A stretch of 64,000 nucleotides of DNA, taken from Micromonospora sp. NBC_01740. Lineage in GTDB: Bacteria; Actinomycetota; Actinomycetes; Mycobacteriales; Micromonosporaceae. The notes beneath the pieces are model-generated. The model saw nothing but the letters and a program-made list of their open reading frames with translations, was not told where the DNA came from and ran no database searches. The DNA lies in the NCBI RefSeq assembly GCF_035920365.1, contig NZ_CP109150.1, positions 1,302,001-1,366,000 on the forward strand, written 5' to 3'. Positions 372 to 10,704 of this stretch are shown in pieces. Position 1 is the stretch's first letter; each line of letters begins with the position of its first letter. The position numbers were made by a program, and so were the translations under genes.

Positions 372-1172
372 ATGACCACCGCACTCGACCTGACCGACCT
401 CCGTGTGCAGGCCGACGCCACCATCGATCGACTGATCGACGAGGCAGGCCTCACCCGACGCAACAACCGGTTCTTCGCGGGCGCGAAGGAGGCCACCTCG
501 GTGAGCCCCGCCGGTGCGCTGCGCATCGCGGAGAAGTGGCAGCGGACCACTCAGGCGTTCATGTTCACCACCATCTCCAGCCTCGGTGCCCACGGGCGAC
601 GCCTGGCTCGCGACTACACAGTGAGTCGAGAGGTACTCGGAGCGTATCAGATGGCGTACCGAGTCATCGGGGACGATCTGGACAATCGGGCGGCGGCCTT
701 CGCGGAGGTCGCGCCGGAGGGTGTGGACGGTGTCCACTACCTGTGGTGGGCGGACACGATCTGCGCGCCGCTGCGCTCGGCCCTGGGCAGCGCGGACGCG
801 CCCGCCGAATCCGCCGCGCTGACCCGCATCCTCGACGTCATGGACTCCATGGCGGCCGAGGAGCTGGGTGGCGCGGTCCAGCTCCGTGTCGTGGAGACCA
901 TCGCCCTCGACATCGCGGTCGCGTTCCGGCGCCTGTACGGCAAGGTCACCGTGGATGGTCGCCAGGTCCTTCCCGAGCAGCGCGACTACGCCTGGATCGA
1001 CTCGCACATCCGGGCGGAGACGGGCCACGCCGCGTCCGTCAGCGACGACGAGGCCGGTATGAGTCACCTGGTCTCCACCCCGGCCGAGGCGGAGCACTTC
1101 GTCGCGCTCGCGGAGTCGTACGTCCCGGCGTGGGCGGACCTGCTGGACGACTTCGCCCGGGACCTGTCGTAG
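372..1172 (+). CDS. Heme-oxygenase-like (HDO/TenA fold) metalloenzyme, DUF6202-like
   Basis: The protein has 266 residues, is all-helical by composition and has no signal peptide. The segment H212-x3-E216-x2-H219 (in [12 protein letters not shown]) matches the His/Glu/His pattern of iron-containing heme-oxygenase-like oxidases and oxygenases. An upstream helix carries E175 in [13 protein letters not shown], a plausible further metal ligand. Known members of this fold oxidise or cleave amino acids and fatty acids with a di-iron centre (UndA, BesC, SznF families); which reaction applies here cannot be read from the sequence. The start is fixed by AGGAGG at 361-366, five bases before ATG. It is the first gene of a co-directional run with a proline-hydroxylase-like oxygenase and ATP-grasp ligases, so I infer oxidative tailoring of an amino-acid precursor. 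The DUF6202 name is from memory and is uncertain. Confidence 0.7.
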
Positions 1173-1272
1173 CGCGACCAACCGAGAACGGCACTGACGG
1201 CCGCCACCGACGACGCCCCGGGCCCGTGGTGGCGACCGCCGGAGTCATCCGGTTCCGAGGAAAGGAGCTGCC

Positions 1273-2400
1273 ATGCGATCGTCCCTGCCAACAGTGGAAA
1301 CAGACGCCGTCGTCAACGAAGTGAACGAGCTGCGTGCCCGCTACCAGCGCGAGACCGAGCCTGGATCGCCGGAGGCGCTGCGCCGGCTGGCCGGTTGGAT
1401 CGCCGACTCGGCGTCGCTCGGTGCCCAGCCCGTGGCCAGGGCACTCGTCGAGGACCTGTCCGGCGCACACGACACGCCGCAGCTCACGGCCACGAAGCGG
1501 CACATCAACTCGCGGGCCGACAACAGGCTCCTGTCCGTGTTCTCGGCCGCGTACTTCCCGACCCTCGGTCTGGACTACCTGGAATACGAGCCCATCCCGT
1601 CCGACCCCGTGCTGGTGGACCGCTACCCGAGCCCGACGATGCCGGTCAACCTGCTCCGGCACAGCGCCGGCTTCGACAGTCGGGTCGTCGTGGCGCTCTT
1701 CCCGGAGAACCACATCGACGGGCGCCAGGAACCGGACGACCTGATCTTCTACTTCATCGACAAGTTCGTCGCCCGGCACCGCCTCACCCGCCGGCTCATC
1801 GACGCCGCCATGGTTCCGGGCTCGTTCCCGCTGCTGTCCGGCGTCGACGACTCCGGCGTCGAGCGGGCCGCCGGTTCCTGGGTACGGCTGCACGAGTTCC
1901 ACCACCGCACGGGCAGCATGCCGATCCCGCAGTTCCTGTCCGCGAAGAGCTACAAGCCGCTGGCCGGCCTGGAGGAGATGCGGGTCGACGTCAAGTCGAT
2001 GCTGGTCTGCCTCGACGACGCGGACATCGATCGTGAGCTCGCCGCGCTGACCTTCGAGTTCGTCCTGGCCGAACGGCTGCTGCGGTACTCGGTCGAGGGG
2101 ATCCCGAAGCCGAACTACGACGCGATCGCGTCGCAACTGCTCTTCAACTACCTGCGCGGGCAGGGCGCCCTGACGATCGACGAGGGGCGGATCCGGCTCC
2201 TGCCGAGCCTGCCCGAGGCGCTGAGCACGCTCGTCACCGAGATCACCGAGCTGGAGGACGTCGTCCTGACCGAGGGGGTCGAGGCCGCCCGCGCGGGACT
2301 GATCGACTTCACCCGCCGGTACACCCGGTACGACGAGGAGAAGCGGGAGTTCCTCCACGTGCCCTTCTTCGCCGAGCTCAAGGAGCGACTCGGCGTGTGA
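1273..2400 (+). CDS. DUF6421-like protein with M49 (DPP III)-type zinc motif
   Basis: The protein has 375 residues and is cytosolic, with no membrane segments. It contains H207-E208-F-H-H211 (an HExxH match) and, 23 residues later, E234-E235-M-R237-V-D239 in GLEEMRVDVKS. This pair resembles the zinc and active-site motifs of peptidase family M49 (HELLGH followed by EECRAE), with a one-residue-shorter first motif. A zinc-dependent hydrolase, or a catalytic relative with another chemistry, is therefore likely. I believe the family is called DUF6421 but cannot verify this. The start has AGGAAAGGAG at 1258-1267 before ATG 1273. It follows the HDO gene by 100 bases and precedes the hydroxylase. 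Its role is inferred only from context: trimming or releasing a peptide intermediate, or a non-peptidase reaction. Confidence 0.6.
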   Translation: MRSSLPTVETDAVVNEVNELRARYQRETEPGSPEALRRLAGWIADSASLGAQPVARALVEDLSGAHDTPQLTATKRHINSRADNRLLSVFSAAYFPTLGLDYLEYEPIPSDPVLVDRYPSPTMPVNLLRHSAGFDSRVVVALFPENHIDGRQEPDDLIFYFIDKFVARHRLTRRLIDAAMVPGSFPLLSGVDDSGVERAAGSWVRLHEFHHRTGSMPIPQFLSAKSYKPLAGLEEMRVDVKSMLVCLDDADIDRELAALTFEFVLAERLLRYSVEGIPKPNYDAIASQLLFNYLRGQGALTIDEGRIRLLPSLPEALSTLVTEITELEDVVLTEGVEAARAGLIDFTRRYTRYDEEKREFLHVPFFAELKERLGV

Positions 2401-9669: not shown

Positions 9670-9900
9670 GGTAAGTGTCGAACATTTCAGGGGTCGACCG
9701 GTCCGGGGTCGCCGAGTACAGTGACCGGCCGTCGGCTGGTCCCGCTTCACACGCGACGGCGACGACATCGGCCGTTGCAATCTCGATTTCGTCGCGTGAC
9801 CCGTGCCGGACACGTGGCGGAGCCATTACGGAGAATCATCACCGCACCCGGAATCGGCCCGGCACGCATCCGTCATCCCCGCAGAGACAGGATCACCGCC

Positions 9901-10704
9901 ATGACCGCACTCCTGGACGCCGTCGCCGCGGGCGTCACCATCCACGACCTCGCCCAGCCGTTCGAGGAGGGGATGCCCTGTGCGCCGAACCATCCCGGGT
10001 TCCGCCTGGCCCTGCTCCGCCGGCACGGCGACGTGGTGCGTGCCGACGGCGGTTCGTCGGCCGGCGAGCTGATCGTCACCGGCGCGCACGTCGGGACCCA
10101 CGTCGACGCGCTGTCACACATCTCGCAGGACGGGCTGCTGCACGGCGGCCACGACGCCGCCGAGGCGCAATCGGGTGGCCGGTTCGGCGTACACGGCGCC
10201 GAGACCATTCCGCCGCTCGTCCGGCGGGGGGTGCTGCTGGACGTCGCCTCGGCCCACGAAGTCGACGTCCTTCCCGGCGGGTACGGCGTGACCGCCGACG
10301 ACCTCGAACGGTGCCTGCGGCGTACGGGTGTGCGGCTGACCGAGGGCGACGTGGCGCTGGTGCGTACCGGCTGGGCCCGGCACTGGTCGGATCCGGCGGC
10401 CTACCTGGGTCTCGACACGGGGGTGCCCGGCGTCGACCCCTCCGGCGCGGGCTGGCTCGCGGAGCACGGGGTCGCCCTGACGGGCGCGGACACCACCGCC
10501 TACGAGCAGATCCCTGCCGGCGCCGGGTTCCGGGTGCTACCGGTCCACCGCCTGCTGCTGGTGGAGGCGGGCATCTACATCGTCGAGCACCTGCGGCTGG
10601 ACTCGCTGGCGGAGGCCGGCGTGAGCGAGTTCCTGTTCGTCCTCGCCCCGCTGCCGATCGTCGGCGGCACGGGCTCGCCCGTACGCCCGCTGGCCGTCGT
10701 GTGA
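9901..10704 (+). CDS. Cyclase family protein (kynurenine formamidase-like metal hydrolase)
   Basis: The protein has 267 residues from ATG 9901, with a modest AGACAGGA upstream. The H-x-G-T-H-x-D metal motif is present as HVGTHVDALSH, and the N-terminal IHDLAQPFEEGMPCAPNHPGF and the later VALVRTGWARHW are typical of PF04199 cyclases. Family members hydrolyse N-formylkynurenine, cyclic amides or lactones, or close rings, using Mn or Zn. It lies about 230 bases from the divergent ATP-grasp/PhzF pair and is the last gene that looks linked to the cluster; genes further right are core actinobacterial functions. I infer hydrolysis or cyclisation of an intermediate, with substrate unknown. Confidence 0.85.
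   Translation: MTALLDAVAAGVTIHDLAQPFEEGMPCAPNHPGFRLALLRRHGDVVRADGGSSAGELIVTGAHVGTHVDALSHISQDGLLHGGHDAAEAQSGGRFGVHGAETIPPLVRRGVLLDVASAHEVDVLPGGYGVTADDLERCLRRTGVRLTEGDVALVRTGWARHWSDPAAYLGLDTGVPGVDPSGAGWLAEHGVALTGADTTAYEQIPAGAGFRVLPVHRLLLVEAGIYIVEHLRLDSLAEAGVSEFLFVLAPLPIVGGTGSPVRPLAVV

Follow-up and report, generated by a model that had tools for sequence, protein, structure and literature searches.

A 13-gene island in Micromonospora sp. NBC_01740 that probably directs NRPS-free assembly of a small azetidine-containing peptide

In a window of 64,000 nucleotides from Micromonospora sp. NBC_01740 (the whole stretch analyzed, bases 1,302,001-1,366,000 of the 7.32-Mb single-contig genome; window G+C 72.85%), we identified the larger part of a 13-gene biosynthetic island that probably makes a small azetidine-containing peptide without a nonribosomal peptide synthetase (NRPS). 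Two neighboring genes encode homologs of PolF and PolE, enzymes that form a rare azetidine (four-membered-ring) amino acid, and around them lie genes for four ATP-grasp-type ligases, a PhzF-family isomerase, a proline-hydroxylase-type oxygenase, two flavoproteins, an MFS exporter, a cyclase-family hydrolase, and a small protein, J. A preliminary description of this DNA had reported nine of these genes, at 372..10704, as one unit for a short peptide or amide with a hydroxylated and otherwise oxidized amino acid. The nine genes are real coding frames at the positions it gave, with codon use resembling the remainder of the window, and the proposed product class is still the best one, the oxidized residue now being narrowed to a putative ethylidene-azetidine carboxylate. 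Strong profile or PDB support exists for seven of the nine (PolF, PolE, oxygenase, ligase D, MFS, PhzF, and cyclase), and the remaining two, ligases E and H, are placed as permuted ATP-grasps through their relatives.

The PolF homolog scores 294.5 bits against the DUF6202 profile (cutoff 25) and aligns over residues 11-264 with six PDB PolF sequences (E 5e-74 to 1.4e-70). H122, H212, and H219 are the sole invariant histidines of the PolF alignment; as read from explicit alignment columns, these three, E175, E216, several Asp, and T60, which aligns with the substrate-side Thr62 of PolF, are identical in 20/20 loci. The invariant histidines and carboxylates are candidate diiron-site residues, and a published account describes a three-His/three-carboxylate (3H/3C) diiron site for the HDO class (PMC13108848). 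The PolE homolog aligns from residue 6 or 7 to residue 375 with the crystallized PolE proteins (best E ~5e-134) and carries HExxH-x22-E (H207, E208, H211, 22 residues, E234), identical in 28/28 sequences; the motif given for PolE/DUF6421 is HE/DxxH-x(21-23)-E (PMC12614342). According to the same source, PolE desaturates L-Ile with Fe, O2, and pterin and alone yields 3,4-dehydro-Ile, and PolF converts Ile to polyoximic acid and Val to 3-methylene-azetidine-2-carboxylic acid and gives desaturated and hydroxylated side products with Leu and Met (PMC12614342). The identity of the pair as a PolF/PolE azetidine module, and with it the building block, is thus well supported by homology to assayed enzymes.

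This replaces an earlier description. The 375-residue protein had been described by an M49 motif: HExxH-x22-E is present, but the HExxGH of M49 peptidases is missing, the protein reading HEFHH, and its PDB match is PolE, on which grounds an M49 peptidase is rejected. The M49 impression arises because the DUF6421 fold resembles dipeptidyl-peptidase III, a likeness that the published structural description reports together with the lack of that enzyme's metal motif (PMC12614342). What had been called an HDO-like enzyme and an M49-motif protein make up the azetidine module of PolF and PolE, the chemistry of which appeared in print in 2025.

The limits of the island were set by comparison with an empty site in a congener (G031), in which a PEBP gene is followed by an AAA kinase gene with nothing called between. 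The NBC_01740 genome leaves this site at position 9670 of an upstream stretch (L002) and rejoins it at window 11317, and the island measures 15,646 bp (genome 1,297,671-1,313,316), starting 4.3 kb before the window begins and ending at window 11316. The earlier limits were therefore four genes too small, three upstream and one downstream: the 13 genes are ligase 2 (lig2, minus strand), a GlcD-like FAD oxidase (minus strand), a DAO oxidoreductase, the nine window genes, and J. All 13/13 occur in the same order and at the same site in two other species (G103 and G077), and so the earlier view of a single unit is upheld, on 13 genes in three genomes. We searched the left and right flank DNA in 160 congeners, the counts of flank matches being lower bounds, and found the flanks nearly joined in at least six (31 bp apart in G099, 32 in G111, 46 in G137, 51 in G014, 61 in G146, and 203 in G031), all six lacking a PolE match; several further congeners have flank gaps of 0.4-2 kb or more. 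A DUF6421 match is present in 8 of the 160, at 90% identity or above only in NBC_01740, G103, and G077; the lesser matches are G142 (57%) and four congeners at ~30%. The 13 genes form one unit, the whole set being present or absent as a block. The ratio of nonsynonymous to synonymous substitution rates (Ka/Ks) is 0.10-0.41 for each of the 13 genes in comparison with G103 and G077, pointing to purifying selection on all of them. The aligned relatives contain one in-frame stop, which falls within the uncertain N-terminal stretch of the G077 H, and the 13 genes of NBC_01740 contain no TTA codon.

The features are, in window coordinates:
1..141, plus strand: 3' end of the gene for a DAO-type FAD oxidoreductase of 476 residues (PF01266 DAO E 8.1e-18), in the same place in G103 and G077; the entire gene, the island's first on the plus strand, is L002:12711-14141, genome 1,300,711-1,302,141
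372..1172, plus strand: PolF homolog (DUF6202, HDO diiron azetidine synthase family), 266 residues; PF19705 E 8.8e-88, SzPolF 9j28 E 5e-74 (residues 11-262)
1273..2400, plus strand: PolE homolog (DUF6421, Fe/pterin desaturase family), 375 residues; SmPolE 9j3g E 4.8e-134 (residues 7-375); start ATG at 1273, alternative GTG at 1294
2466..3311, plus strand: Fe/2-oxoglutarate oxygenase of the L-proline cis-4-hydroxylase type, 281 residues; 4p7w E 1.8e-45, PF05118 E 2.2e-15
3320..4585, plus strand: ATP-grasp ligase 1, here D (PRK07206/DdaF-like), 421 residues; NF005543 315.5 bits (cutoff 302), dapdiamide A synthase profile NF041595 E 6.3e-55 (below cutoff)
4664..6025, plus strand: putative permuted ATP-grasp E (Cp1B/glutathionylspermidine (GSP)-synthase-like family), 453 residues; placed by homology to H, family profile, and motif table
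6118..7365, plus strand: MFS exporter; PF05977 E 5.9e-29, PF07690 E 7e-26; start at 6118 or upstream at ~6058
7355..8182, minus strand: PhzF-family isomerase, 275 residues; PF02567 E 2.6e-45, TIGR00654 109.8 bits (cutoff 76.2)
8200..9576, minus strand: putative permuted ATP-grasp H (GSP-synthase-like), 458 residues from 9576; PF03738 E 2e-4 (below cutoff); R157-D159-E171-N173 in 490-residue numbering
9901..10704, plus strand: cyclase-family (kynurenine-formamidase-like) hydrolase, 267 residues; PF04199 E 1.5e-30; HVGTHVDALSH stretch, which we take to be the metal motif
10764..11282, plus strand: gene J, the island's last, 172 residues, weakly Rv0361-like (NF051431 18.3 bits, cutoff 37); present in the G103 and G077 islands, missing between the flanks in G031
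11317: right island border, from which the window again matches the G031 empty site in a blast comparison
11320..11407, minus strand: tRNA-Ser(UGA), its 3' end adjoining the island border (ARAGORN; Rfam RF00005); the empty site of G031 has the same tRNA

H would be longer if read from the in-frame GTG at 9669, but the first ~28 residues are out of frame in G077 and missing from two distant homologs, and H probably starts near 9576. As the preliminary description had said, NRPS and polyketide synthase domains are lacking: Pfam scans of the 13 genes found neither these nor a carrier-protein domain, very small frames for precursors of ribosomally synthesized and post-translationally modified peptides not having been searched for. 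A second tRNA-Ser(UGA)-like copy lies in G077 ~3.3 kb from the first, between J and the kinase gene (L040 8555-8643 and 11945-12027), and the tRNA-Ser at the border together with this doubling suggests an integration hot spot. A mobile or integrative element, which we also considered, is not supported: the Pfam scans found no integrase among the 13 genes, there is no convincing repeat between the left and right borders, and the island merely adjoins the tRNA-Ser.

The ATP-grasp-type ligases of the island number four (D, lig2, E, and H) instead of the three previously counted. D and lig2 pass the PRK07206 cutoff of 302 (315.5 and 326.4 bits, respectively) and stay far below the DdaF equivalog cutoff of 840 (186.6 and 174.6 bits). 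E and H are distantly homologous (hhalign E 5.3e-8, 350 aligned columns), and a profile of the two with 12 relatives matches Cp1B (9cjn) at E 2.1e-13, a putative glutathionylspermidine synthase at 1.7e-5, and YgiC at 0.0015. Cp1B is a ligase of the NRPS-free E-64 pathway that couples epoxysuccinate with an amino acid and needs R139, D141, E163, and N165 (PMC12568646). H keeps the corresponding R-x-D...E-x-N (R157, D159, E171, N173) plus conserved Lys and Gln columns; the residue mapping to Cp1B is pattern-based, the printed alignment spanning the motif for YgiC and not for Cp1B. Profiles and motifs thus place E and H as probable permuted ATP-grasps by way of their relatives. Whole-protein searches gave six E-like and four H-like proteins among the 8000 candidates scored for each, two of the H-like ones being 100% identical to the window H, and H had no match at E 1e-5 in G848 and G849, in a search run without a positive control.

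Ligases of the E and H types are also found away from the island. The same genome holds an E-like and an H-like permuted ATP-grasp ~9 kb apart (L074, genome 5,333,001-5,353,000), and such pairs lie near one another in several congeners. An E paralog (63-66% identity) stands beside 507-residue proteins in NBC_01740 (L075 10200-11720) and in G077 (L076 8965-10365). A further locus (L080, G060:C39:208000-227000) combines an HDO-family enzyme (PF14518), H-like and E-like ligases, an MFS protein, an M20 peptidase, and a ligase 73% identical to lig2, and is possibly a second HDO/ATP-grasp pathway. In other congeners, E-like ligases occur near relatives of DdaF-like ligases (L077, L078, L079, and L081; in tandem in L077 and L078) and near MFS relatives (L077, L078, and L081), and the family of E may be a marker for a group of small-molecule clusters not yet explored. 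Among metagenome proteins, P0006 (E-like) and P0010 (H-like) report the same longest contig of 22,137 bases, and P0009, P0017, and P0033, an H-like protein and two hydroxylases, share one of 17,547 bases, hinting at related clusters; P0033 begins like a PhzF N terminus and may be mis-started or fused.

To place the module, we scanned a genome collection (84,980 species) with a pattern-based PolE search, which was nonexhaustive and missed a locus in G1152, and obtained 23 loci at 51-56% identity. Together with G103, G077, and G142 these make 26 PolE loci, each judged on the stretch fetched: PolF adjoins in 18, PhzF and the hydroxylase are present in four (G103, G077, L032, and L033), and E and H in two (G103 and G077). 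Broad conservation of the whole cluster was not found. Co-occurrence of at least six genes, named earlier as support for a unit, is seen in close congeners only; beyond Micromonospora, the genes found in common are PolF, PolE, PhzF, and a hydroxylase. PolF matches are rare: 3 of 341 genomes of G848's family, adding a locus of the L032 type in G1152 (L098), 1 of 397 genomes of the order (NBC_01740), 2 of 394 of the class (NBC_01740 and G774), and no match on plasmids. Eight of the 26 PolE loci lack PolF (L012, L013, L014, L017, L020, L021, L031, and L035). Several PolF-less PolE loci adjoin 2000-3000-residue proteins clustering with NRPS-type ones, and the G142 PolE lies beside proteins of 2500-2800 residues with no PolF in 19.9 kb fetched; at such loci, the dehydro-isoleucine that PolE makes may serve as a building block by itself.

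Of 20 PolF loci including that of NBC_01740, six have PhzF and the same six have the hydroxylase. Three of these lie outside the genus, in Streptosporangium violaceochromogenes (L032), Actinomadura oligospora (L033), and G1152 (L098), with the run PolF-PolE-PhzF-Pro_racemase-hydroxylase, in which PhzF directly follows PolE; they also have a carrier protein, a 608-655-residue protein without a Pfam match, and an adenylation protein (extra genes named by Pfam in L032 and L098 and by homology in L033). The other 14 are Streptomyces loci without PhzF and hydroxylase in the stretch fetched, L015, L022, and L028 ending at contig ends. Families recurring in the Streptomyces set, named from one member (L015), are GNAT (12 of 27 locus sets), RimK-like ligase, MFS, and DAO (11 each), and aldo/keto reductase (8). 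Between the two PhzF-bearing locus types, PhzF is 54-67% identical, PolF and PolE are 51-56% identical, and the hydroxylases 27-33%. E46, H73, and D200 of PhzF, presumably its catalytic residues, are identical in 6/6, as are H113, D115, H161, and R171 of the oxygenase, presumably its functional residues. Because PhzF is better kept across the locus types than the hydroxylases, our reading is that PhzF would belong to the azetidine chemistry and that the hydroxylases were recruited separately. A phenazine-like role of PhzF was rejected, as no other phenazine-type gene is among the 13 and PhzF is linked to PolE in the three loci outside the genus.

The same linkage bears on whether the 13 genes might be two adjacent pathways, an arm of PolF, PolE, hydroxylase, and ligase next to an unrelated arm of PhzF, H, and cyclase. 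The opposite gene orientations would fit such a division, as would the E- and H-type ligases that occur elsewhere in the same genera without PolE or PolF. We nevertheless regard it as very improbable: a PhzF 54-67% identical to that of the minus-strand arm stands directly after PolE in the three non-genus loci, and the set is present or missing as a single block.

The GlcD-like flavoprotein allows another account. Its island gene (L002 10972-12396) shares 87% identity with another copy in the genome (941,747-943,161), of a kind found in many congeners. In a tree with 15 chosen non-island copies, the island copies of the three genomes group together (bootstrap 100) and branch next to the second copy of NBC_01740 with weak support (66), and the Ka/Ks of the gene is 0.10-0.13. 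These data would suit a duplicated housekeeping enzyme protecting the producer, the product hitting, or acting through, a 2-hydroxy-acid oxidase; recruitment for biosynthesis explains them too, and a flavin oxidase would be an unusual drug target, which leaves self-protection a distinctly unlikely explanation. The gene is either a recruited housekeeping oxidase or a protective duplicate.

Returning to a single NRPS-free azetidine pathway, we propose an order of steps, the first two by analogy with homologs assayed elsewhere; the substrate in this strain, the third to seventh steps, their order, and the product we infer. First, the PolE homolog would desaturate L-Ile (or L-Val) at C3-C4, using Fe, O2, and tetrahydropterin. 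Second, the PolF homolog would form the four-membered azetidine ring, which would yield polyoximic acid (3-ethylidene-azetidine-2-carboxylate) or, from Val, 3-methylene-azetidine-2-carboxylate. Third, the PhzF homolog could shift the ring's double bond or invert the alpha carbon, and fourth, the proline-hydroxylase-like enzyme would hydroxylate the azetidine residue. Fifth, the two DdaF-like and two Cp1B/GSP-synthase-like ligases would couple the residue to two or more partners via acyl phosphates; sixth, the DAO and GlcD-like flavoproteins may oxidize one partner or the ring; and seventh, the MFS protein would export the product. The cyclase-family hydrolase may trim or inactivate an amide or lactam. 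On the best reading, the product is a short peptide with a hydroxylated, probably isomerized, azetidine residue.

Several observations weigh against this scheme. No metabolite of the cluster is known, and the full 13-gene set was seen only in three near relatives, so that its conservation says little on which genes are indispensable; two of them, J and the gene for the GlcD-like protein, could be passengers. H matches ATP-grasp profiles weakly, below the Pfam cutoff, and E has no significant match; E keeps R114, D116, and E128 and has Gly for the Asn of the motif (E-x-G, as in the paralog at L075 and in P0006; H and the other ten of the 14 sequences read E-x-N). PhzF is missing from the stretch fetched in 14 of the 20 PolF loci and is therefore dispensable for azetidine formation, and the two locus types have hydroxylases of only 27-33% identity, which may modify different positions. 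Finally, the window PolF is ~48-55% identical to PolFs outside the genus, and in the PolF tree, several inner nodes of which are weak, a long branch of 1.05 substitutions per site (support 100) leads to the Micromonospora clade; the substrate or reaction may therefore differ.

The long PolF branch also opens the way to a changed function of PolE and PolF, which would give a dehydro- or hydroxy-amino acid only, with no azetidine, for the ligases to build into a dehydro- or hydroxy-isoleucine peptide. The side products of PolF and the 3,4-dehydro-Ile made by PolE alone, as reported in the published work (PMC12614342), offer chemical precedents, and the PolF-less PolE loci are in line with them. 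On the other side, the candidate metal-site residues of PolF and its Thr62 equivalent are invariant across the 20 loci, both genes are kept together in all three genomes, and the partner hydroxylase is of a type acting on a cyclic imino acid (proline). We consider such a change of function unlikely and continue to favor azetidine formation.

Azetidines are important in drugs. The enzymes that turn simple isoleucine or valine into azetidine amino acids were not characterized until 2025, and the island is a new setting for them: additional azetidines may arise through the recurring PhzF and the proline-type hydroxylase, and the four stand-alone ligases could attach azetidines to peptides, so that the island may supply biocatalysts and a new class of compounds. 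The azetidine building-block chemistry is already known; the proposed assembly logic and the PhzF link are not known from the literature searched. With regard to the earlier statement that no characterized cluster with this combination was known to its author, the building-block pair is known, while the whole set (four ATP-grasps, PhzF, proline-type hydroxylase, cyclase, no NRPS) had no match in the literature searched, although any genome mining within the 2025 PolF papers could include it. More speculatively, and with clearly less confidence than in the pathway proposed above, PhzF may act on the PolF product by a double-bond shift or inversion of the alpha carbon, giving a natural azetidine or azetine amino acid not yet seen. 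After hydroxylation, four stand-alone ATP-grasps of two families would carry out the whole assembly of this residue into a peptide, which would define a class of azetidine peptides made without an NRPS; PolF-PolE-PhzF-hydroxylase would be a portable module of both NRPS-free and carrier-protein pathways.

In polyoxin, polyoximic acid is attached by an amide link. Among the closest known systems is the polyoxin pathway of Streptomyces cacaoi, in which the same two families are adjacent with the same motifs (PMC12614342) and polyoximic acid is one building block joined into polyoxin (PMC4029187). The island differs in that Pfam and NCBIfam scans found no nucleoside-skeleton genes among its 13 genes, in that it adds PhzF, a proline-type hydroxylase, and four ATP-grasp ligases, and in gene order, PolF-PolE here and PolE-PolF in the 14 Streptomyces loci fetched. 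The L032, L033, and L098 loci share PolF, PolE, PhzF (54-67% identity), and a proline-hydroxylase-type oxygenase in one run, and in L033 and L098 an ATP-grasp ligase broadly similar in type lies nearby; in contrast, they add a proline racemase, a carrier, and the 608-655-residue and adenylation proteins and have no E/H-type ligase in the fetched loci. The dapdiamide/DdaF pathways resemble the island in NRPS-free peptide assembly and in the placement of D and lig2 in the PRK07206/DdaF group, but the scores of the two ligases are far below the DdaF equivalog cutoff and no adenylating partner is among the 13 genes. In the fungal E-64 pathway, an Fe/2-oxoglutarate enzyme and stand-alone ligases make a small pseudopeptide (PMC12568646), and the profile match of the E/H family to Cp1B (9cjn) and the Cp1B-like motif pattern of H extend the likeness to the ligases; the island differs in being bacterial, in having two such ligases per cluster, and in starting from another building block.

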